Below, one piece after another: positions 30,007-52,322 of a stretch of 64,000 nucleotides of DNA; position 1 is the first letter of the stretch, and every line of letters starts with the position of its first letter. Source of the DNA: Oceanospirillaceae bacterium (GTDB lineage: Bacteria > Pseudomonadota > Gammaproteobacteria > Pseudomonadales > Oceanobacteraceae). The DNA lies in the NCBI GenBank assembly GCA_002723385.1, contig PBNY01000088.1, forward strand, positions 1 to 64,000. The letters run 5' to 3'. The position numbers and the translations under genes are program-made. The notes beneath the pieces are model-generated. The model was not told the DNA's origin. It saw only the letters and a program-made list of their open reading frames with translations, and ran no database searches.

Positions 30007-30975
30007 ATGTCGCACTCTTCTTCAGATTCTGTTTCTTCTCAAACGATTACTCAGCCAACTTCTGAGGCTGGCCCGGATTCTCGCCTGGCAACGCTGATTG
30101 GAGCATCGGCGGTGTTGTTGTGGGGTTCGCTGGCGTTGTTGACCAGCCTGACCGGCGGACGGATTCCTCCGTTTCAGATGATGTCGGTGTCTTTCGGTAT
30201 CGCGTTTGTGTTGATGGCAATACGCTGGTGGCTGCGCGGAGAATCCGGGCTTGCCTATGCACGTCAGCCCAGAGAAGCCTGGCTGTTGGGCATCGCCGGT
30301 TATTTCGGTTATCACGCCTGTTACTTTGCGGCGATGAGCAAGGCCCCGGCGGTTGAGGTCAGTTTGATTGCCTATCTGTGGCCCTTGCTGATGGTGCTGA
30401 TGAGCACGCTGGTGACGGGTATGGCTCTGCACTGGAATCAGATTGTCGGTGCCCTGACGGCGTTACTGGGTTGCTGGATATTACTGGCAGACGGTGATTC
30501 CGGTTTTGGCAGCCAATATCTGGACGGGTATCTGCTGGCGTTGGTGTGTGCGTTTGTCTGGTCTGGCGTCTCGGTGTTAAGCCGGACCATGAAAGCGGTG
30601 CCTACCGACGCGGCTGGCTGGTTCTGTGGTGCAACGGCGTTCCTCGGCTGTATCTGCCATCTGCTGTTTGAAACGACGGTCTGGCCAGAGTCGTTGTTGC
30701 AATGGTTGGCCCTTATAGGGCTGGGAGTTGGCCCGGTCGGTATCGCGTTCTTTACCTGGGACTATGGCACCAAACACGGCAATCTGGTTCTGCTTGGCGT
30801 GATGTCTTACGCTGCGCCACTGGTGTCGGTGCTTCTGCTGCTGTTGGCTGGAAAAGGGGAATGGCGGTTATCGACTGGCGTGGCAACGATTGCGATTGTT
30901 ATCGGAGCGTGGATGGCTTCCCAGATTGCAGATAAAAAAACGGCCGCTCCAATGGAGCGGCCCAAGCAACCGTGA
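30007..30975 (+). CDS. EamA/DMT-family exporter, YddG-like
   Basis: A 322-residue membrane protein with ten predicted helices and two EamA repeats (for example VLLWGSLALLTSLTGGRIPPFQMMSVSF at the start and GPVGIAFFTWDYGTKHGN in the second repeat). The TWDYGTKHG motif and overall pattern are closest to the aromatic/neutral amino-acid exporter YddG. The last ten codons (AAPMERPKQP) overlap the terminator hairpin of a converging small RNA, so the C-terminal tail is shaped by that RNA element. Confidence 0.85.
   Translation: MSHSSSDSVSSQTITQPTSEAGPDSRLATLIGASAVLLWGSLALLTSLTGGRIPPFQMMSVSFGIAFVLMAIRWWLRGESGLAYARQPREAWLLGIAGYFGYHACYFAAMSKAPAVEVSLIAYLWPLLMVLMSTLVTGMALHWNQIVGALTALLGCWILLADGDSGFGSQYLDGYLLALVCAFVWSGVSVLSRTMKAVPTDAAGWFCGATAFLGCICHLLFETTVWPESLLQWLALIGLGVGPVGIAFFTWDYGTKHGNLVLLGVMSYAAPLVSVLLLLLAGKGEWRLSTGVATIAIVIGAWMASQIADKKTAAPMERPKQP
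30934..30963 (-). terminator. Terminator of the distal PrrF-type sRNA, inside the exporter's 3' end
   Basis: On the minus strand GGCCGCTCC and GGAGCGGCC form a perfect stem (loop ATT), followed by GTTTTTTT. The whole element lies within the last codons of the converging EamA gene. Confidence 0.88.
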
Positions 30976-31050
30976 TTAAGCTTTGATGAGAGAGATCCAC
31001 TCAGAGCCCTGACACTCTTCATGGAGTACCGACATCCGTGTGGTGTCGAT
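30934..31050 (-). ncRNA. prrF: Fur-regulated small RNA, PrrF/RyhB type (distal copy)
   Basis: Predicted 117-nt RNA between a sigma-70 promoter with embedded Fur box and an intrinsic terminator. It shares with the upstream copy a core reading GATCTCTCTCATCAA-GCT-AATCACGG-TTGCTT on the minus strand (30964-31000) and a GTGTCAGG block (31008-31015); outside these, the two differ. Tandem, Fur-repressed sRNAs of about 115 nt with a near-identical core are the hallmark of Pseudomonas PrrF1/PrrF2, which repress iron-rich proteins when iron is scarce. From memory the CTCATCA-GCTAATCACGG core resembles PrrF, but this needs a covariance-model check. Confidence 0.78.
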
Positions 31051-31056
31051 GAGTTA

Positions 31057-31085
31057 ACAATAAGCATTCTCATTTGTGTTTGCAA
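31057..31085 (-). promoter_or_regulatory. Sigma-70 promoter with Fur box, distal PrrF-type sRNA
   Basis: TTGCAA (-35, 31080-31085), exactly 17 bases, then TATTGT (-10, 31057-31062). The spacer contains AAATGAGAATGCT running into TATTG, a Fur-box-like sequence, so iron-loaded Fur would block RNA polymerase. Confidence 0.75.
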
Positions 31086-31231: not shown

Positions 31232-31261
31232 CAAAAAATGGCCGCCCTTGCGGGGCGGCCG
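31232..31261 (-). terminator. Terminator of the proximal PrrF-type sRNA
   Basis: On the minus strand GGCCGCCCC and GGGCGGCC pair around GCAA, followed by ATTTTTTG. It has the same position relative to the conserved core as in the distal copy. Confidence 0.88.
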
Positions 31262-31379
31262 AAGCAACCGTGATTAGCTTGATGAGAGAGATCACACTTG
31301 ATTCCGGTGGACCTGACACCGCCGGAACCAACAGACAATAACGCCTGCGGTGAACACCGTTCCTGTCTCCAGAAGCGAT
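31233..31379 (-). ncRNA. prrF: Fur-regulated small RNA, PrrF/RyhB type (proximal copy)
   Basis: Predicted 147-nt RNA with its own Fur-box promoter and terminator. It shares the core GATCTCTCTCATCAAGCTAA and TCACGGTTGCTT (31262-31295) and GTGTCAGG (31312-31319) with the distal copy 200 bases further on. The two RNAs are transcribed in the same direction, separated by a full terminator and promoter, i.e. a tandem duplication. The 5' part is unrelated to that of the other copy, suggesting partly different targets. An overlapping 101-codon frame on this strand is judged a chance ORF. Confidence 0.75.
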
Positions 31380-31385
31380 ATGTAA

Positions 31386-31431
31386 ACGATATTCGTTCTC
31401 ACTTGATTGGTCAAGAATGATTCTCATTTAT
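31386..31431 (-). promoter_or_regulatory. Sigma-70 promoter with upstream Fur box, proximal PrrF-type sRNA
   Basis: TTGACC (-35, 31409-31414), 17 bases, TATCGT (-10, 31386-31391). Immediately upstream and touching the -35, AATGAGAATCATT (within 31413-31431) matches 12 of 13 core bases of the Fur consensus AATGATAATCATT. Confidence 0.78.
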
Positions 31432-40901: not shown

Positions 40902-41681
40902 TTATCCGACGGCCTGCCACACCAATCGAACTGCCATGGCGGTAATAACAACCCGAAAGATACGCTTGAAATGACGGGCTGGAATGCGGTTTAGCAGTTT
41001 CAGTCCCAGCCAGGAACCCAGTATTCCAAAGACGATCATGGCGGCGATAAAGGGCAGCCATTGCCAGAACACAAACCCGACGCCCATGAATACAGCGCCT
41101 TTGAGGCAGTGCTGAAAGGTCATGCAGGTGGCGAAGGTGGCGGTGTGGGTCAGTTTGTCGTAGTCACCACGATGAACAAAACCGGCAACCAGTGGCCCGG
41201 TGGCACCAACGAACATGGAGGCGAGTGTGGTCATGCCGCCAGCCAGCATGCGTCCGTTGGGCGTGAGTTCGCGTTTTTGTGGCTTGGGTCCCCAGATCAG
41301 AAACAGAATAAATCCGGCCACTGCGAGTTGAATGATTTGCAGCGGCAGCTGAATCACAATCAGTGAGGCAATCAATGCTCCGGCCATGGCACCGATGGAG
41401 AAAAACTTCACCATCTGCCAGTCGACATGCTGACGGGTCATCAGGGCGCGATTGCCATTGGAGCCGAGTTGGATCAATCCGTGCACCGGAATCAGCGCAC
41501 TGACTGGCAGTACCGAGGCGAGTGTTGCCAGCAGCAGGACACCGCCACCGATGCCAAATGCGGCGGTAATAAAAGAAGCGATGGCCGAAACCAGCAATAA
41601 CGCCAGTGCGGTGGAAGGTTCCAGTAATCCGGCGGTAAGCCACTCCAGTGGCAGGGTATCGAGCGACAGAAAGCTGAGCAT
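40902..41681 (-). CDS. TauE/SafE family membrane permease
   Basis: A 259-residue membrane protein with seven to eight hydrophobic segments in two repeats (SFITAAFGIGGGVLLLATLASVLP and later GMTTLASMFVGATGPLVAGF), the TauE/SafE pattern linked to export or uptake of sulfite, sulfoacetate and similar anions. The ATG comes immediately after a strong terminator hairpin, so its promoter must overlap or lie beyond that element. Substrate unknown. Confidence 0.87.
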   Translation of the reverse strand: MLSFLSLDTLPLEWLTAGLLEPSTALALLLVSAIASFITAAFGIGGGVLLLATLASVLPVSALIPVHGLIQLGSNGNRALMTRQHVDWQMVKFFSIGAMAGALIASLIVIQLPLQIIQLAVAGFILFLIWGPKPQKRELTPNGRMLAGGMTTLASMFVGATGPLVAGFVHRGDYDKLTHTATFATCMTFQHCLKGAVFMGVGFVFWQWLPFIAAMIVFGILGSWLGLKLLNRIPARHFKRIFRVVITAMAVRLVWQAVG

Positions 41682-41756: not shown

Positions 41757-43013
41757 CTAGGGTGCTTCGCAGTTATCCCAGTCTTCGTCTGAGATCAGAT
41801 GTTCGTAGCGAGCGTCTGTGAGCGTCAGCATAAAACACACCAGTGCTTCGACATTCGCATCCGTCATCTTGCGACCATCTTTAAGCTCTGTGAGAGCAAC
41901 GGTCTCCGGTACCTTGGGATCACGCCAGGCAACGCCGGTCTCTGGGTTCAAGGTGTTTTCCGAGCCGGTGATAAAGTGATCGTAGAAGCGCATCACGGTA
42001 TCCAGTTCAGCAAACACACCGTTGTGCATATAGGGGCCAGTGATCGCGACATTACGCAACGTTGGCACCTTGTACTTGCCGCGTTCCGATTCGTCAGTCA
42101 CCGCCGGGTTATCCAGCAAACCCGGATCGGTGAAGTCCGCCCCACGGCCGCTGGCTGTCTGGGCGTCCAGGTTCTTGGGAACGCCAATATTGTGGTATTC
42201 GTAACCTGTAAAAGTTTCGCCACTGCGTCCCTGTGCCTTCAGCTGATGGCAAGTCGCGCAGTTAGTGAACTGCTGGGAGAAAAACAACACTTTGCCAGAG
42301 TTGGCTTTGGACAGGATGTTGTACTCGTAGTAGTCCGGGTCTTCGGCATCCAGTAATGAGCGATCGTATTTTGAATCGAATGGCGCAAAGGTTTCCGTTT
42401 GTTCGAAGGCAGCAATAGCGTCGGCCATGGCCTTGTAGGTCTGCGTGGCATCATCCCAGACTGTAGCGCCATAGAGGCTTTCAAAGGCTGCTACGTAGTC
42501 TGCATTTTCCTGAATGCGGGTGGATACTTCCGCTTCGCTGGCCATCCCCATTTCCGCTGCGTTCAGTGGCGGACCTTCAGCCTGATCCGCCAGAGTAGCG
42601 GAACGACCATCATGAAACTGGCCGCCAATAAAGCCTTCATAGTCGGGCTGCTGGCTGTTGAATCGGGTTCGGGTGCCTTCTGTAAAAGTGGGAGAAATTT
42701 GCGCATACGCAGCAGTCGGAGCGTTACGATCACCCAGAGAAGTACCGTCATCGCCCAGAGAGACAGAGCCTGCACCCTCGGCAGAATGACTGGTGACGTT
42801 ATGGCGACTGTCGACAAATCCGTGTTCCGGGTTGTGACAGGTTGCGCACGCCTGAGTGCGATTGGCCGACAGGTTGACGTCGTGGAACAGAGCTTGACCC
42901 AGTTCGGATTTGGTTTCGAAAGCCGGTTTGCCGGAGCCGTTGTCACTGCCACCACAGGCGCTGAGACCCAGTGCGGTCAGTCCGATCAAACTCAGGGTAA
43001 TTGTTGATTTCAA
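41757..43013 (-). CDS. Di-haem cytochrome c peroxidase/MauG-like lipoprotein
   Basis: A 418-residue lipoprotein (lipobox LGLSAC, then GGSDNGSG) with two CxxCH haem c sites: CATCHNPEHGF near residue 60 and CATCHQLKAQG near residue 250. The later PYMHNGVFAELDTVMRFYDHF is the conserved C-terminal block of the CcpA/MauG family. It would sit in the periplasm. It is divergent from the imelysin gene across a 246-base region holding Fur-box-like sequences, so both sides of the locus are probably iron-repressed. Confidence 0.9.
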   Translation of the reverse strand: MKSTITLSLIGLTALGLSACGGSDNGSGKPAFETKSELGQALFHDVNLSANRTQACATCHNPEHGFVDSRHNVTSHSAEGAGSVSLGDDGTSLGDRNAPTAAYAQISPTFTEGTRTRFNSQQPDYEGFIGGQFHDGRSATLADQAEGPPLNAAEMGMASEAEVSTRIQENADYVAAFESLYGATVWDDATQTYKAMADAIAAFEQTETFAPFDSKYDRSLLDAEDPDYYEYNILSKANSGKVLFFSQQFTNCATCHQLKAQGRSGETFTGYEYHNIGVPKNLDAQTASGRGADFTDPGLLDNPAVTDESERGKYKVPTLRNVAITGPYMHNGVFAELDTVMRFYDHFITGSENTLNPETGVAWRDPKVPETVALTELKDGRKMTDANVEALVCFMLTLTDARYEHLISDEDWDNCEAP

Positions 43014-43092
43014 TGTAACGCCTCTCTCGTCGACTGCTGCAAAGGATCGTCTGTTGCTGGCGATCTTCTTCGACCTTTTTAATGTTGCGAAA

Positions 43093-43160
43093 TCCTATCA
43101 TATTGATAATCACATGCGACTAACAATCCACACAGTAAGTGTTGATAATTGTTTTCATTA
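43093..43160. promoter_or_regulatory. Fur-box-like operators in the divergent di-haem/imelysin promoter
   Basis: Two sites resemble the Fur consensus (GATAAT-based): CATATTGATAATCACATG around 43099-43116 and GTTGATAATTGTTTTCATT around 43141-43159. Their central place between divergent genes suggests common iron control. Similar AATGAGAATCATT boxes control the two PrrF-type sRNAs elsewhere in this window. Confidence 0.6.
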
Positions 43161-43259
43161 CGCTTAGCATGCCGATCATTGTAGTAACCAGCCGCATCCA
43201 AAGCGCTGACTGAAGTCAAGATGGAGCGGGAAACGTTAGACAGTCCGGGGGCGAACACG

Positions 43260-44729
43260 ATGAAACTGAACAAACTGGCCGCAGTGGTGGCGGCTGCAGT
43301 ACTGATGACTGCTTGTGGAAGTGATGACTCAAGCGGCGGTAGCAAAATCGACGTTGAAAAAGTGGGTCAGGTACTGGAAACCAACGCTGATATCGCATAC
43401 GCGGCTTACAGCGATTCGGTGGATACAGCCAAGGCGCTGAAAACGGCGCTGGAAGCGTTCCGCAAGGATCCTACAGCGGCCAATCTGGAAGCGGCGAAGA
43501 AAGCATGGCTGGTTGCGCGCGAACCCTACGGGCAGACTGAGGTGTACCGTTTCCGTCTGAGCCCAATTGACTCCACCGATTACAGTTCCGAAGACGGCCC
43601 TGAAGGTGACATCAACGCCTGGCCTTTGGGCGAAGCTCTGATCGATTATGTGAAAACCAACACGTCGGACTTCGATACGGACCAGATAGGTGTTACTGCC
43701 AACCAGGCCGGCATCAACGGTGGCGGCGCCATCGACAAGGCGTATGCGGATGCCAACGCCTCGGACAACATCATTGGTAACGTCTCCGTTGATATCAACG
43801 CGGATCTGTTGGCCAACACGGCTACGGCGGATGACGAACATGATGTGATCGCGGGTTATCACGCGATTGAGTTCATTCTGTGGGGTCAGGACCTGAATAC
43901 GACAGGTGACACCACTGACGGCACGGATCGTGACGAAGCGGTGAAGTCGTATGTCTTCAACCACGGTGGCCAGCGTCCTTTGAGCGACTTCGAGCCGGGT
44001 TACGCCGACGGTGATTACGATTCCGCCGAGCTTTCTGATCGTCGTCACAAATTTATGGAAGTGGCCGTCGACAAACTGATCGCGGATCTGGAAGGCGTTC
44101 GTGACGGTTGGAAAGACGGTGCCAGCTACCGCACCGCATTCACTACCGTTGAGACAGAAGCTCAGGCGAAGCAGAAACTGGCTGAGATGATGACCGGTAT
44201 GGGCACGCTGTCCGAAGGTGAACTGGCGGGGGAGCGTATGCAGATTGCCTTCAGCGCCAACTCCCAGGAAGACGAGCATTCCTGCTTCTCTGACAACACT
44301 CACCGTGACATCTGGCTGAACGCAGAAGGCGTGAGTAACAGTTACTACGGTGACTACGCCGGCTACGACAGCACTCTGGATGGCTCCGACGACGCAACCA
44401 CTCGCAAGGTCAACGGTTACGGACTGGATGATTACCTCAACGACGTCGGTCTGACCGCGGAAGCGACGACGCTGGAAGCCGCTTTGACAGCGACCCAGAC
44501 CCAGTACGCGGCGATCGACGACAAGGCCCGAAATGGCGAGCCGTTTGACGTTCTGATCATGGAAGAAAACCGTGTTGAAACCAATCCGGTTTACAAGGCG
44601 ATTGTTGCCCTGAACACCCAGTCCAAGTTGATTGCAGACGTTGCTGAGGACCTGAGTCTGGATGTGGACGTGGTCGATGACGACGCTTCTGGTTGTGACA
44701 CCGAAAACCCGACTCAAGCGTGTGAGTAA
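43260..44729 (+). CDS. Imelysin family (M75-like) lipoprotein
   Basis: A 489-residue protein. ATG 43260 with GGGGG upstream opens into a lipoprotein signal (AAVLMTAC, then GSDDSSGG). The imelysin signature G-x-H-x-x-E is present as AGYHAIEFILWGQD in the middle of the protein, with RFRLSPID and the conserved second repeat. Imelysins were first called peptidases but are now linked mainly to iron acquisition (EfeO/IcmP relatives). It is the first gene of a five-gene run: imelysin, DUF1111, DUF1513, imelysin 2, porin, under the Fur-box region. Confidence 0.93.
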   Translation: MKLNKLAAVVAAAVLMTACGSDDSSGGSKIDVEKVGQVLETNADIAYAAYSDSVDTAKALKTALEAFRKDPTAANLEAAKKAWLVAREPYGQTEVYRFRLSPIDSTDYSSEDGPEGDINAWPLGEALIDYVKTNTSDFDTDQIGVTANQAGINGGGAIDKAYADANASDNIIGNVSVDINADLLANTATADDEHDVIAGYHAIEFILWGQDLNTTGDTTDGTDRDEAVKSYVFNHGGQRPLSDFEPGYADGDYDSAELSDRRHKFMEVAVDKLIADLEGVRDGWKDGASYRTAFTTVETEAQAKQKLAEMMTGMGTLSEGELAGERMQIAFSANSQEDEHSCFSDNTHRDIWLNAEGVSNSYYGDYAGYDSTLDGSDDATTRKVNGYGLDDYLNDVGLTAEATTLEAALTATQTQYAAIDDKARNGEPFDVLIMEENRVETNPVYKAIVALNTQSKLIADVAEDLSLDVDVVDDDASGCDTENPTQACE

Positions 44730-44767
44730 GCGGTGAGGTGTTTCATCCTTGAATGATCGAAGATGCG

Positions 44768-44823
44768 GACGGCCAGCTGGCCGTCAAACTGCATCAATGC
44801 ATAAGCCGGGCTTGTCCCGGCTT
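44768..44823 (+). repeat. Two adjacent perfect hairpins between imelysin and the di-haem oxidoreductase
   Basis: An 18-bp perfect palindrome GACGGCCAGCTGGCCGTC (44768-44785) is followed by AAGCCGGG-cttgt-CCCGGCTT (44803-44823). The second has only a weak T-tract (GTTG) and may act as a partial terminator or mRNA processing barrier, which would let the first gene be expressed more strongly than the rest. Confidence 0.55.
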
Positions 44824-46359
44824 GTTGCGTTGTTGAAACAGTGTACAAGCGTTCAGCGTAATTCGGTCTTGCGGCTTGCTGCGCTGATGATCGTCACCGC
44901 TGGATCGGTGGGGTGCAGTCAGTCGGAACAGCCGGATAGCCGTATCGTTCCTGCGGTCTCGGAGGCTGAGCTGCGTCCGGGGGGCAATGCGACGACTTCC
45001 CTGATGCCGTTCCCGAGTTTCGACAAGCTGGCCCCCTCGCTCCCCGATGTGGACAAACCTGATTTCCATGCCGGGCGGGCACTGGCGCGCCAGCCCTGGG
45101 TCAAGGCACCCACCATTACAGACGCCCGTGATGGACTCGGCCCTGTTTATAACGCCCGTGCCTGTCTGGCCTGCCATGTGCGCGGTGGCAAGGGCCTGAT
45201 ACCTGCCGACAGCCAGACACCGCTGTTCAGTGGTCTGGTGAAAATGAGCATTCCGGTCAAAACCGGTGACGACATCGAGTGGCTGCCAGAGCCAACTTAC
45301 GGCGAACAACTGCAGACCCAGTCGGTGGCCCTGCAGCATCAGCTGCGTTTGAGCAATCCGGTGGAGATGGTTGCAGCCGGTCAGGTTGCTCCCGAGGCGT
45401 ACGCCTACATTCAGTGGCAACAGCACACCTTCACCTACCCGGACGGAACCATCGTGACTCTGCGACAGCCGTCGCTGGATCTGCAACATCTGGCCTACGG
45501 CGACATGCATGCCGAGACGGCGTTCAGTTTGCGCAATGCGCCGATGATTCAGGGGATGGGGCTGCTGGAAATGATTCCCGAGGAAGCCATTCAGGCGCTG
45601 GCCGATCCGGATGATCAGGATCAGGATGGCATTTCCGGTCGTGTGAATCAGGTGCTGGATATCCGCACCGGTGAGCTGGCTCCGGGCCGCTTTGGCCTCA
45701 AGGCCAACAAAGCCAGTATCAATGAAATCGTGGCGGGTGCGTTTGCCAATGATCTTGGTATCAGCAACCCCTTGTTTCCGGAACAGCCTTGTACCAGCGC
45801 CCAGATCGACTGCCTGAAACAGCCTGACGGTAACGGTACTGCCCATGAGGATTCCGGCTTTGAGCTGCCGGATCACTTGCTGCAGCTGGTGATCCGGTTT
45901 ACCAACAATCTGGGGGTGCCGAAGCGTCGCAATGCAGATGACGCCGACGTTCAGGCCGGGCGGTCACTGTTCTACCAAAGCGGCTGTGCCAGCTGTCATC
46001 AGCCGTCATTTCAGACCGCATCAGCCGAGCAGGCCGTGTCACCCGAGCTCACCCATCTGGCTAACCAGACCATCTGGCCCTACACCGATTTACTGCTGCA
46101 CGACATGGGTCCTGACCTGGCTGATCACCGACCCGACGGCGACGCATCCGGCTCTGAATGGCGCACCGCACCCTTGTGGGGCATTGGCTTGTCGGCCCAG
46201 GTCAATGGCAGTCGCAACCTGTTGCACGACGGGCGCGCACAGACCATTGAAGAAGCCATTCTCTGGCATGGCGGCGAAGCCAGTGCCGTGAGGCAACGCT
46301 TTGTGGCACTGGATAGTCAGCAACGTCAGCAGCTGCTGGCCTTTGTGCGGTCGCTGTAG
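44797..46359 (+). CDS. Di-haem oxidoreductase (DUF1111 / thiol oxidoreductase-like) lipoprotein
   Basis: About 520 residues. Two CxxCH motifs are present: ACLACHVRGGKG in the first quarter and GCASCHQPSF near the end. GPVYNARACLACHVRGG and the later FGLKANKASINEIVAGAF are typical of the DUF1111 family; the N-terminus ends in a lipobox-like GSVGC. The start is uncertain: ATG 44797 is inside the first part of a hairpin and has no good ribosome site, and a TTG at 44869 would give a compact signal. The gene is regularly found between imelysin genes in Pseudomonas-type loci. Confidence 0.88.
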   Translation: MHKPGLSRLVALLKQCTSVQRNSVLRLAALMIVTAGSVGCSQSEQPDSRIVPAVSEAELRPGGNATTSLMPFPSFDKLAPSLPDVDKPDFHAGRALARQPWVKAPTITDARDGLGPVYNARACLACHVRGGKGLIPADSQTPLFSGLVKMSIPVKTGDDIEWLPEPTYGEQLQTQSVALQHQLRLSNPVEMVAAGQVAPEAYAYIQWQQHTFTYPDGTIVTLRQPSLDLQHLAYGDMHAETAFSLRNAPMIQGMGLLEMIPEEAIQALADPDDQDQDGISGRVNQVLDIRTGELAPGRFGLKANKASINEIVAGAFANDLGISNPLFPEQPCTSAQIDCLKQPDGNGTAHEDSGFELPDHLLQLVIRFTNNLGVPKRRNADDADVQAGRSLFYQSGCASCHQPSFQTASAEQAVSPELTHLANQTIWPYTDLLLHDMGPDLADHRPDGDASGSEWRTAPLWGIGLSAQVNGSRNLLHDGRAQTIEEAILWHGGEASAVRQRFVALDSQQRQQLLAFVRSL

Positions 46360-46387
46360 GAAATCGTCGGTTATGAGAGAAAAAACC

Positions 46388-47569
46388 ATGAAACACCGTG
46401 AAGCCACCCGACCGGGTAACCGCCTGAGCCGCCGTCAGCTATTGCAGTTGAGTGGTGCATCCGCACTCGGACTGGTTGCCTGGGGAAGCGGGCTTGCCGC
46501 TGCTGCTTCGCGGCCAGGAAAGGGGGTGAGCGGGGAAATCTGGTTTTCCGCCCAGGGCCGCGATGCCTCGGAATACAGTCTGAGCTGGCTGACAGATGGC
46601 AAGCAACCGGTGACGGCAGCCAGTGGATTTCGTGGTCATGGCGCGGCGTCAGACCCGGTCAATCCGCGGCGGTTGGTGATGTTCGCTCGCCGTCCGGGCT
46701 GGCATGGCTTGTGGGTGGATGTGACCGACCCGGATCGAATTCAAACGTTCGAGGCGGCACCGGGCTGCTTTATGCACGGACATGGCTGTTTCAGTGCGGA
46801 TGGCCAGTGGGTGTTCAGCACGGAATCCGAAATTGAGTCCGGTGTTGGCAAAGTGGTGGTTCGAGACAGCCAGACGCTGGCCGTTGAACGGGTGTTTGAC
46901 AGTGGTGGGATTGGTCCCCATGACCTGGCCTTGATGCCGAATGGACAGCATCTGGTGGTGGCCAACGGCGGTCTGCTGACGCATCCCGACACCGGTCGTA
47001 AGGTATTGAATCTGGACTCGATGCGCTCAACCCTGAGCTACCTGGATATCGAATCCGGCCAGATGGTGGAAGAACTGACCTTGCCGTATCCAAAGGCCAG
47101 TATTCGTCATCTGGATGTGGCTCCCAACGGTACGGTGGCCGTGGCGACCCAGCTGCAGCGAGAGGCGATGCGGCACGATGATCTGGTGCCGTTGGCTGCG
47201 TTGCATCAACCGGGTTCGAGCCGTTTGATGGAACTGCAAGGTCCGGAGCCATTACTGGCCCGGTTCAACGATTACATGGGCAGTGTACGGATCAACCCGG
47301 CGACCGGACTGGCTGGATTCACCAGTCCAAGAGGCAATCTGGCTGGATTCTGGGATATCCACAGTGGCGAGCTGGCCGGTTATCACGCCTTCTTCGATGT
47401 TTGTGGGCTGACGGTGTCGGCGGATCAGCAACGCTTCGTGCTGTCCAACTCCGCCGGAGAAATTCGTCAGCTGGACGCTCGCACCCTGACAGAGCACACC
47501 GGGTTACGGCAGCGATTCAACGGCCTGCACTGGGACAACCACCTGTTCACGATCCGTTTACCAGGTTAA
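46388..47569 (+). CDS. DUF1513 protein with Tat-type signal
   Basis: A 393-residue protein from ATG 46388 (GAGAG upstream). The N-terminal NRLSRRQLLQLSGASALGLVAW is a twin-arginine export signal, implying folding, perhaps with cofactor, before export to the periplasm. The mature part looks like a seven-bladed beta-propeller (repeated GHGAASDPVNPRRLVMFARRPG, FMHGHGCFSADGQWVFSTE, GGIGPHDLALMPNGQHLVVANGG) as in DUF1513. It is a standard member of imelysin/DUF1111 clusters. The gene starts 28 bases after the DUF1111 stop. Confidence 0.9.
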   Translation: MKHREATRPGNRLSRRQLLQLSGASALGLVAWGSGLAAAASRPGKGVSGEIWFSAQGRDASEYSLSWLTDGKQPVTAASGFRGHGAASDPVNPRRLVMFARRPGWHGLWVDVTDPDRIQTFEAAPGCFMHGHGCFSADGQWVFSTESEIESGVGKVVVRDSQTLAVERVFDSGGIGPHDLALMPNGQHLVVANGGLLTHPDTGRKVLNLDSMRSTLSYLDIESGQMVEELTLPYPKASIRHLDVAPNGTVAVATQLQREAMRHDDLVPLAALHQPGSSRLMELQGPEPLLARFNDYMGSVRINPATGLAGFTSPRGNLAGFWDIHSGELAGYHAFFDVCGLTVSADQQRFVLSNSAGEIRQLDARTLTEHTGLRQRFNGLHWDNHLFTIRLPG

Positions 47570-47622
47570 CCGGGAATCCGACCAATCCAGAGAATGACCA
47601 TCCAATAACCGGATAAATAAAG

Positions 47623-48744
47623 ATGAGAGATAACACAGCCACAACCCTGTATTGGCCCGGTTGGAAACAATCGGCATCCATTGGCGTACTGGCCCTGACG
47701 CTGGCGGCTTGCGGCGGCACGCGAGAGAACGATGAAGCCGTATTGAGCCAGGGATCACTGGATCTGGCCATTCAACAGTTGACCGATGCCACCATCGTGG
47801 CGGGCGCTGATCGGATGGCGACTGAGGTGGAAACCCTGAACTCGCACATCACCAGCTTTTGTAACGCCCCGGATGCCGCAGGACTGAGCCAGTTGCAAGG
47901 GCAATGGCGAACGCTGGCAGCGGCATGGCAGCAGCTGCTGCCGTACAACTTTGGCCCGCTGAACGACGATCTGGTGTTTCCGCCTTACCAATACATTGAT
48001 TCCTATCGACCTCGTGGCCGCGATTACACCGAAACGGTTCGGACTGAAATCGATGGCTGGCTGGACTCGGACGACACATTGAACACCGAGTACTTTGCAT
48101 CCCGCACCTTTAACCGGGTCGGCTTGCTGGCACTGGAAATCACTCTGTTTGAAACCGCTGCGGATCAAGGCACTGATGCCACAGCTGTGCTGGGGGAATT
48201 CTCCAGCCAAAGTCGCAAGTGCGAACTGCTGGCGGGACTGGGCGGTGCGCTGGCACTGCGCACGGATTCGGTACGTGATGGCTGGAGCGCGACCTATCAG
48301 GACACTGGTACATCGTATCGGGAGCAATTCCTGTCCGGTGAGCTGGATGACGGCTCCACGCCACTGGTGACACTGCTGACCTCGGTGCAGAGCTATCTCG
48401 ACTATTTGCAGCAGCGGGATGTGGTCAGCAACGTGGCGCAGATTTCTGCCAGCGACAGTTTCGACAGCTGGACACTGATGACTTCCGCCATCGACAGCAT
48501 TGAAGGCTTGTTGGCGGGTACCAGCGAAGAGCAGGTGAGCCTGTTTGAGCTGATGACAGCCGGTGGCAATTCAACCGCCGTAGCCACCGTTCAGGCGAAT
48601 CTGCAGCAGGCCCGCGACGCCATTGACAGCCGTGATGCCACCAGTTTCAACGCCGCTGCCGCCACGCTGGATGGCAATTTCAAGCGCGATATTCCCGACA
48701 GCCTCGACGTCAGTCTGGGCATTAACTTTTCCGATGGCGACTGA
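47623..48744 (+). CDS. Second imelysin-like lipoprotein, degenerate HxxE motif
   Basis: A 373-residue lipoprotein (lipobox LTLAAC, then GGTREND). It has the imelysin two-repeat helical architecture: first repeat LQGQWRTLAAAWQQLLPYNFGP, second repeat ending LGINFSDGD. At the place where the first imelysin has G-x-H-x-x-E, this one reads GLLALEITLFE, so the motif His is replaced by Leu. It may be a structural or scaffold partner of the first imelysin rather than a metal-binding copy. Same operon, 53 bases after DUF1513. Confidence 0.87.
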   Translation: MRDNTATTLYWPGWKQSASIGVLALTLAACGGTRENDEAVLSQGSLDLAIQQLTDATIVAGADRMATEVETLNSHITSFCNAPDAAGLSQLQGQWRTLAAAWQQLLPYNFGPLNDDLVFPPYQYIDSYRPRGRDYTETVRTEIDGWLDSDDTLNTEYFASRTFNRVGLLALEITLFETAADQGTDATAVLGEFSSQSRKCELLAGLGGALALRTDSVRDGWSATYQDTGTSYREQFLSGELDDGSTPLVTLLTSVQSYLDYLQQRDVVSNVAQISASDSFDSWTLMTSAIDSIEGLLAGTSEEQVSLFELMTAGGNSTAVATVQANLQQARDAIDSRDATSFNAAAATLDGNFKRDIPDSLDVSLGINFSDGD

Positions 48745-48774
48745 GCCAGGTACTGACTTTTGATGGGATTTGAT

Positions 48775-49971
48775 ATGAAAACCAACCGTCTTTCTCTTGC
48801 TGTCGCCATGACCATGGCAGCGGCTTCCACACCCGCTTTGGCCGATGGCCATGGCGCGCATTCGGCCTCAACCGATGCAGACACCATCCGTCGTCTTGAG
48901 CAACGTATCCAGTACCTGGAACAGACCATGGACGAGCGTCTCGGTGCGCTGGCGGACGCCATGGAAGAACAACAGGCTGCCAATCCCCTGAGCAAGGTGC
49001 ATTTTGGTGGTTACGGCGAGTTCAACTATCACAACCTGGATGTGGATGGCACCGATGATCGCCAACTGGACTTTCGTCGCTGGGTGCTGTTCGTGGGCTA
49101 CGACTTCAGCGACAGCGTGCGTCTGGTGTCTGAATTTGAAGTCGAACACGCTGTCGTGCCTGGCTCCGATGGCAATGGCGCTGTCGAGCTGGAGCAGGCC
49201 TATCTGGAGTTTGATCTGTCCAGCCGTCAGAGCCTGAAGACCGGTATCCTGCTGATGCCCGTAGGTATTATCAGTGAGACTCACGAGCCGACCACCTACT
49301 ACGGTGTTGAGCGTCCGATCATTGAAACCACCATTATCCCGACCACCTGGTTCGCTGGTGGTGTGATGTACAGCCACAGTCTGGGCAATGGCCTGAGCTA
49401 CGACCTGATGATCTCGGAAGGTCTGAAAACAGACGACCCCAACGCCGACGCGGATGCGGATCCGTTTGACCTGAAAGCGGGTAAACAAAAAACCTCATTC
49501 GCCGACGCTTTTGACCTCGCAACCACCGCACGTCTGGTATGGCGCGGCGTGCCAGGGCTGGAAATGGCGGTTTACGGCCAGTATCAGCCGGATCTGGATC
49601 AGAGTGCCGAAACCTCTTACGCCGATTCGGCTACCTTGCTGGGCAGCCACGTGGTGTATCAGTGGAATCAGGTCACCACCAAGGCGCTGTACGCGCGTTG
49701 GGATCTGGCCGGGGATGCAGCCAAAGCAGCGGGCAAGGACGTTCAGGACGGTGGCTATCTGGAAGTGAGCTGGAAACCGGTGGATGCCTGGGGCTTCTTT
49801 GCCCGTCAGAACAGCTGGTCACAGCAAGAAGGCGTGGATAAAACCCAGACCGACGTTGGCTTCAATTACTACCCGCTCGAAGACATCGTCTTCAAAGGCA
49901 ACTATCAGCTACAAAATGAAGACGCGGGCAATGCCGATGGTTTCTATCTGGGAATGGGATATCAGTTCTAG
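48775..49971 (+). CDS. Outer-membrane porin (OprO/P-like) at end of the imelysin operon
   Basis: A 398-residue protein with a signal peptide (...AAASTPALA-DGHG), a short N-terminal coiled coil (TIRRLEQRIQYLEQTMDERLGALADAMEEQQ), and a 16-strand-type barrel ending in GMGYQF with a terminal Phe. The N-terminal coiled coil plus VHFGGYGEFNYHN and DFRRWVLFVGYDFSD patterns resemble phosphate-selective-porin-like proteins (OprO/P fold). The position suggests it lets an iron compound reach the periplasmic imelysin/haem proteins, which is an inference. ATG 48775 with GGGA upstream. Confidence 0.85.
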   Translation: MKTNRLSLAVAMTMAAASTPALADGHGAHSASTDADTIRRLEQRIQYLEQTMDERLGALADAMEEQQAANPLSKVHFGGYGEFNYHNLDVDGTDDRQLDFRRWVLFVGYDFSDSVRLVSEFEVEHAVVPGSDGNGAVELEQAYLEFDLSSRQSLKTGILLMPVGIISETHEPTTYYGVERPIIETTIIPTTWFAGGVMYSHSLGNGLSYDLMISEGLKTDDPNADADADPFDLKAGKQKTSFADAFDLATTARLVWRGVPGLEMAVYGQYQPDLDQSAETSYADSATLLGSHVVYQWNQVTTKALYARWDLAGDAAKAAGKDVQDGGYLEVSWKPVDAWGFFARQNSWSQQEGVDKTQTDVGFNYYPLEDIVFKGNYQLQNEDAGNADGFYLGMGYQF

Positions 49972-50057
49972 GAACCTGGCTTTGCCTATCGCTTGATAGA
50001 CGTTGCCGATTCCACTTTTTCACATCCGAGGCTGTATCCATGCAGCCTCATCAACTT

Positions 50058-50349
50058 TACCGGAAAATTACTGGACTGCCGCACTTGCTCGATCAAGGAC
50101 AAATGCATGGTCAACCCGGAATCAGCGGATCACAGAAAGGGGTCCGGCAGACAGGTCTCGTTCCGGGTGTACAGCGCGACGCCAACCTACGCCGATTGGA
50201 TGAAGGCCAGAATCGACAGTGACGAAGGTAAGCGAATTTATAGCCATCCCATGTCGACGGTGGAGCCAGTGTTTGCAAATCTGGAGCATAATAAAGGCTT
50301 GAAACGGTTCAGCGTGCGGGGTAAAAAGAAAGTACAAGCTCAATGGTAA
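50058..50349 (+). pseudogene. IS1182-family transposase, C-terminal remnant
   Basis: The frame ending at 50349 reads LLDCRTCSIKDKCMVNPES, then DHRKGSGRQVSF, MKARIDSDEGKRIYSHPMST, VEPVFANLEHNKGLKRFSVRG and KKKVQAQW. This is the zinc-ribbon and DDE C-terminal region of IS1182/DUF772-type transposases. Everything upstream is missing, and the normal downstream continuation is cut after QAQW. Only the last quarter of the transposase survives, so the element is dead. The relic marks the border between core DNA (porin) and an AT-rich accessory patch. Confidence 0.85.
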
Positions 50350-50582
50350 TTATTTGCTTCGGCACACAATATCGAGAAGTCGATACCGAAGATTGGGTGA
50401 TAATAGCGGAATTACTGCAAGGGAGATCATTTATGCAGTTATATCGTGATTTACCTCTCCTTACTTGTTTTGAATTTTTGAAAGAGGCTGTGATTGCTGA
50501 TTTTCGATGGCTTTTTGATATGAATAACATATCAGTTATCGAAAATGGTTTTTCTACAGCCTCGTTAGGGTTTCGAATATGA
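50343..50582 (+). CDS. Hypothetical small protein overlapping the IS relic
   Basis: A 79-codon frame that begins in the last codons of the transposase relic and ends in a 4-base ATGA overlap with the next membrane-protein gene. No family recognised; no ribosome site. Met 50433 (MQLYRDLPLLTCFEF) could be the real start. The overlap hints at coupling, but the frame may simply be a fusion made by the IS junction. Confidence 0.3.
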   Translation: MVIICFGTQYREVDTEDWVIIAELLQGRSFMQLYRDLPLLTCFEFLKEAVIADFRWLFDMNNISVIENGFSTASLGFRI

Positions 50583-51214
50583 ATTCACTCGTATGGAACG
50601 TAGAGATCTCGCAACGATTGCGAATTTCTATTCAACTGGCTCTTGGCGCTTTGCCGATCGGCCTAATGTTCGCAGCTTTTATCCCACTATTTTTAATTGC
50701 TGAAATTTTGGCTGGTGCGCTGGGTATCCCCGATGGTGCTCCTGTGATCGAACAAGCAAATGGCATTACTTGGCTTATTCTTTTTCTAGTAATTATGGTT
50801 GGTCTCATGGTAGCCGGTTATTTAATTGGTTGGTTCCTTAATGCACTTATATTTAAATTAATCTACCGTTGGCCTGATTCAAAACTTAAAAGAGTATTTC
50901 TTAATTCGGAAATCCCTGAACATTGGCTAAAGGCAGGCGATACCGTCGTCGATACAACGTCATCTTCAAATAGCGCTTGGGCGAACACTCGTAAGAAAGG
51001 AAAGTTCAAATTTATACTGATTCATGGGGTACTAGCGTGGGGTGCGCCAATGTTTTTCCTTATGTCGGTATTTCCTGTATTCAATGGCAATAGGGCTGCT
51101 TCGTTCTCATATTTTGGTCTTCAGCTATGTATATGGGTAATAGCTGGCGCAGCTTTCGGGAGCTTTATCTGGTATTCCTCAGAGAAAAGTTTTAAGAAAA
51201 ATGAAAATAGTTAA
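50579..51214 (+). CDS. Predicted four-helix membrane protein, unknown
   Basis: A 211-residue protein with about four hydrophobic segments: residues 19-45, 62-90, and two after residue 140 (FILIHGVLAWGAPMFFLMSVFPVF and YFGLQLCIWVIAGAAFGSFIW), with a polar loop between. AT-rich relative to core genes. No family recognised. It lies between an IS relic and an attC-like site and is followed by a DUF4259 gene, so it looks like a cassette gene. Confidence 0.6.
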   Translation: MNSLVWNVEISQRLRISIQLALGALPIGLMFAAFIPLFLIAEILAGALGIPDGAPVIEQANGITWLILFLVIMVGLMVAGYLIGWFLNALIFKLIYRWPDSKLKRVFLNSEIPEHWLKAGDTVVDTTSSSNSAWANTRKKGKFKFILIHGVLAWGAPMFFLMSVFPVFNGNRAASFSYFGLQLCIWVIAGAAFGSFIWYSSEKSFKKNENS

Positions 51215-51297
51215 CCCAAACAAGCGACTGTGGTCACCAGTGGTATGGTTAGGTTCAGTTGGGACGTTGCTCACACCTTAATGCGGCGTTAACTTTC
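51213..51297 (+). repeat. attC-like site between two cassette-type genes
   Basis: The segment begins GTTAACCCAAACAAGCGAC and ends GCGGCGTTAACTT about 85 bases later; terminal TTAAC/GTTAA are complementary and inner GCGAC can pair with GTTGC. It starts at the stop codon of the membrane-protein gene and ends shortly before the next start, as attC sites do. Internal pairing is only partial. Confidence 0.42.
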
Positions 51298-51313
51298 ACC
51301 AAGGAGAAAACAC

Positions 51314-51718
51314 ATGGGTGCGTGGGGAATGGGAGTGTTCGATGATGATACTTCCTGTGAAATCATGGAGGATGCAATTGATGAAGGCACTTCAATTAAT
51401 GCCTTAATCTGTAAAGCATTGGCTGCATCTGACTCCGAATACATTGAATATACTGAGTGTCATGACATTATCGTTGCTGGAGCAATGATGAATGCATTAC
51501 TCAATGGAGTAGTTTACGAAGGTGTTGAGGATTTAGATCCTTGGTTAGTAAATCAGAATAAAGACCAAGCTGCACTACACACAGCTAATCTGGTTTTGGC
51601 TTTGAAAAAGGTGTTGTCCGAAGGTTCTGAGCTAAACGAGCTTTGGTCTGAGAATGAAGATGATTATCCAACTTGGAGGGGTAACATTGAAGCTATTATC
51701 AGCGACCTCGATAGTTAA
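51314..51718 (+). CDS. DUF4259 domain protein
   Basis: A 134-residue acidic protein beginning MGAWGMGVFDDDTSCEIMED, the diagnostic start of DUF4259, and ending with ELWSENEDDYPTWRGNIEAIISDL, also conserved. AAGGAG lies 8 bases before the ATG. DUF4259 genes are frequent in mobile integron cassettes and other accessory DNA. Function unknown. The stop codon is embedded in GTTAACGTTGTC..., and AACGTTAAT follows 30 bases later, a possible second short attC-like end. Confidence 0.85.
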   Translation: MGAWGMGVFDDDTSCEIMEDAIDEGTSINALICKALAASDSEYIEYTECHDIIVAGAMMNALLNGVVYEGVEDLDPWLVNQNKDQAALHTANLVLALKKVLSEGSELNELWSENEDDYPTWRGNIEAIISDLDS

Positions 51719-52322
51719 CGTTGTCCTGTCCGCAATGAACGTTAATTTAATCACATTGAGAGAATGTCAGTGCGGAATATGTCATTGACTTGATCTTATA
51801 TTTTATTTCGTCATAATTTCTATTTTAAAAATTCGATTTTATAATCTGGTGTACTCCAATATGGTGCTGGTATCTTGTGACCGTCTTTCAGGAAAACTGC
51901 GCTGAGCGGAGAGTCTTGATTATTTATACATAATCGAACAAATTATTTTTTATAAAACAGTGATCAAGACGTTACAATGCGCCCGCAAATGGAGCAACCC
52001 GATTTGATGCCCTTACGGCGATTTCTGACAATGCCTTGACCATATCACGCGATTCGTCCAGTGGTTGAATGCGTTTGCTGTTGGATAAAGTCTATAAAGT
52101 GATCGTTGGTGAACAAAGCCAGACCTTTGGTCGCCAGGCCTTATTGTTTCTGGCAACGAATGCATTAAAAAGTGGACCAATCGATATCGCTCTGGAACCT
52201 GCACACAGATATCAGCAGGGCAGCCTGAACCGGGCGGCCTACTGAGCACCGTGTATGCGACTCTTCCGTCTCTCTCACTTTGGGTGGGTCGCATGCGAAC
52301 AGGGGAGCTTCGGCTCCCCTGT
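51719..52322. other. AT-rich intergenic region with one small possible ORF
   Basis: Mostly AT-rich (especially 51780-51970) with no recognised gene. A 58-codon frame on + from ATG 52069 to 52245 (MRLLLDKVYKVIVGEQSQTF at its start) reads like protein and returns to core-type composition, but it has no clear ribosome site and no recognised family; it may be the tail of a gene cut by the insertion of the accessory patch. Confidence 0.4.
52300..52321. terminator. Hairpin terminator at the end of the large PhoD-like gene
   Basis: CAGGGGAGC-ttcg-GCTCCCCTG is a perfect 9-bp stem with a UUCG tetraloop, directly after the stop of the minus-strand phosphatase gene. A TTTAATT tract follows on the plus strand, so it may work in both directions. 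Confidence 0.65.

Follow-up and report, generated by a model that had tools for sequence, protein, structure and literature searches.

Fur-regulated imelysin operons without EfeU are known from Pseudomonas aeruginosa (PA4370-PA4373) and Vibrio cholerae (VC1264-VC1266), and two kinds of imelysin, with the motifs GxHxxE and GxxxxE, have been described by Xu and colleagues (accessible part of PMC3143127). In this study, we report the analysis of a six-gene cluster at positions 41757-49971 of the first 64,000 nucleotides of contig PBNY01000088.1 from an Oceanospirillaceae bacterium (this whole stretch is called the window), comprising genes for a MauG-type di-haem enzyme, a GxHxxE imelysin (Ime1), a di-haem protein of family DUF1111 (Pfam DHOR), a propeller of family DUF1513, a GxxxxE imelysin (Ime2) and a porin. 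The core of the cluster is already known and, judged by its gene content, it is a member of the PA4370-4373 type; what is new is a dedicated branch of MauG, with the Fur-box region that it shares. Both the PA4370-4373 kinship and the MauG gene as the unusual conserved part had gone unrecognised in the original prediction made for this DNA. We consider it fairly probable that the cluster is a Fur-repressed iron-starvation module of the outer membrane and periplasm, of the PA4370-4373 kind, with a MauG-type enzyme of its own and often an OprO/P-like porin. The best reading is that the MauG-type enzyme acts on a protein of the cluster, for which we infer a substrate, a redox direction and an iron flux in conditional terms below.

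The features shared with PA4370-4373 and VC1264-1266, as far as these are set out in the accessible text of PMC3143127, are Fur control, a GxHxxE imelysin, a DUF1111 di-haem protein, a GxxxxE imelysin and the lack of EfeU. In the window, the GxHxxE imelysin gene stands beside the DUF1111 gene, a GxxxxE imelysin is present and no EfeU was found; the Fur box is strongly supported, and Fur regulation would follow from it. Unlike PA4370-4373, in which we take PA4373 to be the DUF1513 gene, the cluster has two additions, a MauG-type gene, which is divergent in most loci, and a porin, present in 20 of the 42 close loci defined below; its gene order is different as well. The cluster resembles EfeUOB in joining an M75 protein to a haem redox protein under an iron theme, but no FTR1 permease was found in the genome, and CCP_MauG and DHOR proteins stand in place of a DyP peroxidase. 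EfeB is a DyP-family protein (accessible part of PMC3577903) and was grouped with DUF1111 in the portion of PMC3143127 available. No cupredoxin or DyP family was found in the eight proteins scanned with Pfam, neither imelysin having a cupredoxin domain, and the EfeO model gave 21.3 bits against a cut-off of 270. In the open PMC literature, no paper was found that joins an imelysin with a MauG-type enzyme in such a cluster, and none linking MauG with Fur was found among the open PMC matches listed; two Leptospira papers bring up imelysin together with MauG, and in the accessible part of one of them the MauG-annotated protein is said to be without the Tyr ligand.

The original prediction had placed six genes in this region, and their positions and strands agreed with the window, with a Pfam family for five of them; since the arrangement recurs in many other genomes, it is not due to chance. 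The MauG-type di-haem c enzyme is encoded at 41757-43013 on the minus strand (418 amino acids, lipobox-like N-terminus; Pfam CCP_MauG, 4e-41). Its best match in the Protein Data Bank (PDB) is Paracoccus MauG, with 307 bits and 45.5% identity across 356 aligned residues; entries of the next kind score 119 bits. It scored 85.3 bits against NCBIfam model TIGR03791 (cut-off 443.85) and 130.5 bits against the MbnH-type model TIGR04039 (cut-off 362.85). Like MauG, which serves in tryptophan tryptophylquinone biosynthesis, it carries both CXXCH motifs and the distal ligand Tyr294, and these are invariant in all 55 homologues compared (MauG of locus L128 was excluded by a length limit). The position of Trp93 is held by Leu in 21, Trp in 18, His in 14, Ile in one and Phe in one of the 55, the window protein having His. 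Trp199, part of the electron relay of MauG, is absent from all 55, and the ten columns before the second CXXCH are without any Trp. The enzyme is unlike MauG in having no Trp93/Trp199 relay, and in that no methylamine dehydrogenase light chain (PF02975) was found in the window's own genome, the same search being positive in control genome G110. Because this light chain is the known substrate of MauG, the enzyme of the cluster needs another target. The loss of Trp199 was also considered as proof of a new target and is weakened as such, since L084, which lies beside methylamine dehydrogenase-like genes, also lacks this residue. Trp93 acts as the inter-haem relay in MauG, and BthA of Burkholderia, with Tyr-His ligation and Ser in place of Trp93, forms bis-Fe(IV) and reduces H2O2 (accessible part of PMC6405878). 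Loss of the inter-haem Trp, on the evidence of BthA in that text, does not stop bis-Fe(IV) formation. The cluster enzyme is like BthA, as described there, in its Tyr-His haem and its lack of an inter-haem Trp. Its similarity to BthA is lower, however: entry 6nx0, presumably BthA, scores 119 bits.

Genome contigs were scanned with Ime1 and the best 80 named loci were kept, which constitutes a best-hit and not a random sample, and in which some loci repeat genomes of the order survey described below. Close Ime1 proteins, defined by at least 50% identity in the best segment, occurred in 42 of the 80 loci, some loci being cut at contig ends. MauG was present in 37 of these 42 compared with 2 of the 38 more distant loci; DHOR was found in 39, DUF1513 in 37, Ime2 in 37 and the porin in 20 of the close loci, and the porin in none of the 38. 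In 30 of the 37 close loci with MauG, the gene was adjacent to Ime1 and divergent, and in seven it was farther off or in another orientation. Three (L119, L122 and L127) of the five close loci without MauG (the others being L120 and L138) start with a contig end that falls at Ime1 or close to it. A MauG homologue was detected elsewhere in the genomes of L138 (51%) and L127 (54%), and L119 gave only a 38-residue match (58%). The gene set of L122 equals that of G058:C90, and genome G058 has a 56% MauG homologue on another contig; the genome of L122 probably has MauG elsewhere as well.

In a MauG tree of 56 rows that included Paracoccus MauG and had long branches at L084 and L139, one clade (support 100/95) held 45 rows, 43 of which came from the 46 cluster-linked rows. 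Its remaining two were L074, a contig-end copy whose genome carries the cluster on another contig, and L067. Outside it were the linked L078, L156 and L181 (by classic-type Ime1), the unlinked L077 and L079-L084, and Paracoccus MauG. MauG distances tracked those of Ime1, DHOR, DUF1513, Ime2 and the porin (r 0.60-0.84, n 20-39). The order survey covered 145 genomes, of which 52 had DUF1513 and 20 a MauG homologue of at least 250 bits. Carriers include Oceanospirillaceae, Thiodiazotropha, Halieaceae, Kangiellaceae, Thiomicrospira/Hydrogenovibrio and metagenome-assembled genomes (MAGs) of Myxococcota, binning errors being possible in MAG carriers. Cultured bacteria with this cluster are Oceanobacter mangrovi (L108) and Thalassolituus maritimus (L110). 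Ime1, Ime2 and DUF1513 occur together in 95 loci, counting the window and repeats; DUF1513 stands before Ime2 in 43 of them and after it in 52, and only 2 of these 52 have MauG. Taken at the level of sequence, the co-inheritance of the MauG-type gene with one imelysin clade suggests a specific partner.

The Fur box, GTTGATAATTGTTTTCATT, lies at 43141-43159 in the divergent promoter region between the MauG-type gene and Ime1. Motif analysis was performed on 32 divergent MauG/Ime1 intergenic regions (31 related loci and the window) out of 47 loci with MauG and Ime1; ten loci that are not adjacent and divergent (L078, L132, L134, L137, L140, L141, L144, L156, L164 and L181), the repeats L070, L072 and L075, and L115 and L128, with misread gene starts, were omitted. 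Palindromic expectation-maximisation returned ATTGAAAATCATTTTCAAT as the top de novo motif, which we take to be the Fur box pattern. Its score was 216.0 as against 29.3-34.2 in ten dinucleotide-shuffled sets, the actual score being pushed up by close relatives among the 32 regions. A palindrome site of at least 16 bits was found in 27 of the 32, the weakest being those of L131 (10.1) and L139 (11.5). With a matrix built without the window, which further omitted L117 (a near-repeat) and the two weakest regions and counted identical sites once, 43141-43159 was the best site of the 64 kb (17.8 bits); first-order Markov nulls of 64 kb held a mean of 0.18 sites of at least 15 bits, and the top site of 50 nulls reached 19.8. 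A promoter-like match at 43142-43170 (+) overlaps the box. Matches to the 19-base Fur consensus had p ≤0.05 in 15 of the 32 regions and not in 17 (by eye), and the de novo motif is a stronger test of the Fur box than such counts. The earlier proposal that Fur controls both sides from one region is thus supported by the conserved box, the shuffles and the leave-window-out matrix, all of them sequence evidence.

Ime1 (43221-44729, +; Peptidase_M75, 1.5e-58; motif GYHAIE) is a probable lipoprotein. Its likely start is ATG 43260, from Met14, a residue kept at 97% in 40 Ime1 proteins from clusters with MauG. It matches PDB entry 7xrx, an insulin-cleaving metalloproteinase outer membrane protein, at 1.3e-54, and the G, H and E of GxHxxE are identical in 96 of 96 Ime1 compared. 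Ime2 (47623-48744, +; Peptidase_M75, 4.7e-19), an imelysin-like probable lipoprotein, has the motif GLLALE, of which G and E are kept in 41 of 41 aligned sequences; the HxxE imelysin of the original prediction was confirmed in Ime1, and the second imelysin is corrected to the GxxxxE type. The DUF1111 protein (44749-46359, +; Pfam DHOR, 2.4e-90; likely start ATG 44797, by eye) has both CXXCH motifs conserved. By eye, lipobox-like signals precede Cys in the MauG-type protein (LSAC), Ime1 (MTAC) and Ime2 (LAAC), and less clearly in the DUF1111 protein (SVGC). Tandem DUF1111 genes were observed in 34 of 40 loci from Colwellia, Pseudoalteromonas and their kin (L145-L184), several of which have DUF1513 about 2-3 kb past Ime2.

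Residues were contrasted between 40 Ime1 from clusters with MauG and 56 from clusters without (numbering from 43221); repeats and cut or reduced loci (L070, L072, L073, L075, L119, L120, L122 and L127) and off-length rows were omitted, and L138 was counted as lacking MauG though its genome has one. Twelve of 502 Ime1 positions were clade-specific, including Tyr382, Tyr400, Tyr429, Cys492 and Cys501. Tyr accounts for three of the twelve against 0.48 expected by composition, a figure uncorrected for general Tyr conservation. Trp223 of the DHOR protein was present in 97% of sequences with MauG and 4% of those without, and Cys368 of DUF1513 in 95% and 8%; for Ime2, four rows without MauG passed, so that no contrast was made. 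As the compared groups are also clades, all these residues are treated as leads. The clade-specific Tyr residues of Ime1 were rejected as proof of a substrate, as L078, L156 and L181 lack Tyr382, Tyr400 and Tyr429, L181 keeping Tyr303.

The DUF1513 protein (46301-47569, +; Pfam DUF1513, 4.6e-80; likely start 46373 or 46388, by eye) is a seven-bladed propeller predicted to be exported by the twin-arginine translocation (Tat) pathway, with R15 nearly invariant and R16 invariant in 49 sequences. Its model was of high confidence, with a mean predicted local distance difference test score (pLDDT) of 92.1 and a predicted template modelling score (pTM) of 0.85. Five His residues are invariant in two comparisons, of 37 and of 49 sequences, and also in alignment A1 (49 sequences). 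Residues H84, H132, H178, H241, Y296, D337 and H385 (numbering from 46388) fall one in the first strand of each of the seven blades, the blades being assigned by counting model strands in fours and a residue being placed if in the strand or at most three before it. Since first blade strands line the central channel of a propeller, a metal or cofactor site at the channel is likely on the model. The model aligned to nitrous oxide reductase, which holds a copper cluster in its propeller channel, with Z 30.8 and a root-mean-square deviation (rmsd) of 3.0 over 312 residues, many propellers scoring similarly. The top Foldseek match was chain 1jju_B of quinohemoprotein amine dehydrogenase, and methylamine dehydrogenase was not among 50 VIA-align matches; no weight is placed on either, because seven-bladed propellers resemble each other. 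No paper on DUF1513 was found in the open PMC literature.

The sixth gene (48760-49971, +; likely start ATG 48775, by eye) encodes an OprO/P-like porin, as judged by its homologues and a model of moderate confidence. The window porin itself had no Pfam match at 0.001 and scored 18.2 bits against Porin_O_P (PF07396), just under the cut-off of 20.9, and PDB sequence searches with it gave no useful match. Among 22 homologues at E up to 1, Porin_O_P was matched by 11 (best 3.5e-7) and OMP_b-brl by 14 (best 3.4e-4). The model (mean pLDDT 69.6, pTM 0.65) has 16 strands and an N-terminal helix. Its structural alignments were led by OprP (rmsd 3.2, 295 residues), tied with PorB (rmsd 3.1, 275 residues) at Z 24.0, and Foldseek placed Vibrio OmpU first and OprP third.

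The original prediction had called the cytoplasmic-membrane permease missing. FTR1 was indeed not found anywhere in the window's own genome (90.26% complete), where control genomes gave matches, but this is not special to the locus, given that imelysin operons without EfeU are known and that 14 of the 18 genomes searched, this one among them, are alike in this respect. As FTR1 was found in the remaining four and not here, FTR1/EfeU was rejected as the missing partner. Fur, FeoB and two FecCD permeases over the cut-off are encoded in the own genome. A third imelysin (GLEAIE, no HxxE) was located in a haem-uptake locus (L065; own genome C12:14000-32000) with genes for HmuY, HemS/ChuX, a binding protein, a FecCD permease, an ATP-binding cassette (ABC) ATPase, a DUF4856 protein, the imelysin and a TonB receptor, and with a Fur-like site at L065:9211 (14.6 bits). 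The fourth imelysin of the genome stands among seemingly unrelated genes (by eye). The haem-locus imelysin and the iron genes suggest, by sequence, that the imelysins of this organism have a role with iron or haem.

The steps of the proposed module can be set out conditionally. Low iron would free Fur from 43141-43159, where the box and its conservation are observed, and both sides would be transcribed. The porin may let in small, probably anionic, iron complexes, and Ime1 and Ime2, going by their family, would bind iron or a compound of it. A redox or cofactor step may fall to the DUF1111 di-haem protein and the DUF1513 propeller, and the MauG-type enzyme, using peroxide and its His/Tyr haem, would oxidise a cluster protein, with Ime1 as the first candidate. 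For the final entry of iron, FeoB or an ABC permease from elsewhere in the genome could serve. The outer-membrane and periplasmic iron theme of the original prediction is consistent with the sequence and with the accessible part of PMC3143127, but its complete route that oxidises and captures iron overreaches; redox direction, passage of iron through the porin and action of the MauG and DUF1111 proteins on iron went past the evidence and are kept here as suppositions. We also entertain, as a doubtful elaboration, that the MauG-type enzyme, as a further kind of protein-modifying MauG, oxidises Ime1 under iron starvation (at Tyr382, Tyr400 or Tyr429, or at Cys492 or Cys501) or the DUF1111 protein (at Trp223) to give a modified iron site, and that the His/Tyr/Asp ring of DUF1513 carries a metal or cofactor, being placed as the copper ligands of nitrous oxide reductase are.

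Several observations weigh against an iron module with a MauG-type enzyme of its own. An in-clade MauG paralogue of the same genome (L067 8787-10358; own genome C73) adjoins cobalamin genes without imelysins, its neighbours being a periplasmic binding protein and CobO/BtuR and CobQ-like genes, and no Fur-like site of at least 10 bits was found in the 18 kb of L067. Only 20 of the 42 close loci have the porin, and, in the order survey, a strong MauG homologue lay no more than 10 kb from DUF1513 in only 8 of the 20 genomes that carry one. L120 keeps Ime1 and DHOR with no close MauG homologue in its genome; this locus is from a Thalassolituus MAG, its cluster reduced to Ime1 and DUF1111. The distance correlations, which were not corrected for the species tree, may reflect mere common descent, and the proposed Tyr and Cys residues of Ime1 double as clade markers, the Tyr set being absent from the MauG-bearing L078, L156 and L181.

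The strongest competing explanation, which we regard as possible though short of even chances, is that the MauG-type protein is an ordinary peroxide-removing peroxidase of BthA kind, protective when iron-dependent catalases are low and modifying no protein. BthA provides the precedent, combining a Tyr-His haem and bis-Fe(IV) with H2O2 reduction in the accessible part of PMC6405878, and in the window protein Trp93 is replaced by His and Trp199 is missing. Against this explanation, the protein matches MauG far better (307 bits) than the next kind of PDB entry (119 bits), and the inheritance of the gene with one imelysin clade suggests a specific partner. It is unlikely that the cluster handles haem rather than free iron, with the imelysins carrying haem beside di-haem partners and a haem ABC system elsewhere completing uptake. 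The second imelysin locus of the genome is indeed the haem-uptake set L065, and a DUF1513 profile has a weak match to 6rtd, a cytochrome c entry (5.7e-5 over the full chain, with no single stretch above 10 bits); yet no TonB receptor or haemophore family was found by Pfam among the cluster proteins, and the haem-locus imelysin belongs to another branch (Ime2 profile match 89 bits; GLEAIE, no HxxE). Nor would haem be expected to cross a general porin, a further point against this explanation. A role in handling copper or some other metal, like that of MbnP/MbnH and with the Fur box a sign of co-regulation only, appears very improbable: the match to the MbnH-type model (130 bits) lies far under its cut-off of about 363, no MbnP-type family was found among the cluster proteins scanned, and the Fur box is conserved. 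It would be favoured by the existence of a match to the MbnH-type model, by the DUF1513 His ring, which in the aligned model could hold copper as in nitrous oxide reductase, and by L079 9034-14001, where genes for a ZnuA-type binding protein, an ATPase and an ABC-3 permease come after an unlinked MauG homologue.

The role of imelysin/DUF1111/DUF1513 clusters is a long-standing question, to which a co-inherited MauG-type enzyme gives a direct handle. If a MauG-dependent mass change occurs in a cluster protein, the short list of tasks known for MauG chemistry would gain iron acquisition; otherwise, this MauG branch would be a peroxidase linked to Fur. In DUF1513, a family without a paper in the literature searched, the conserved ring residues offer a candidate metal or cofactor site.

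Neighbouring features of the window were also noted. A TauE-like gene at 40902-41681 was considered as a cluster member and left out, as tblastn found it in 2 of 120 loci (L107 and L108). Directly after the porin, at 49993-50349 (+), lies a 118-amino-acid C-terminal remnant of an IS1182-type transposase (48 bits; NCBIfam cut-off 270), bordering a stretch of low GC content (0.419 at 50001-52000). A pair of PrrF-like small RNAs in tandem was located at 30934-31084 (-) and 31232-31414 (-), matching Rfam RF00444 over its full length with 37.9 and 41.7 bits (E 7.9e-5 and 1.2e-5), under the gathering threshold of 90. Fur-like boxes stand at their starts (31056, 13.5 bits; 31410, 16.9 bits) and terminator-like hairpins at their ends. 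Sub-threshold PrrF-like matches were present in 12 of the 18 genomes searched, including the window's own, with five in a row in one of them.

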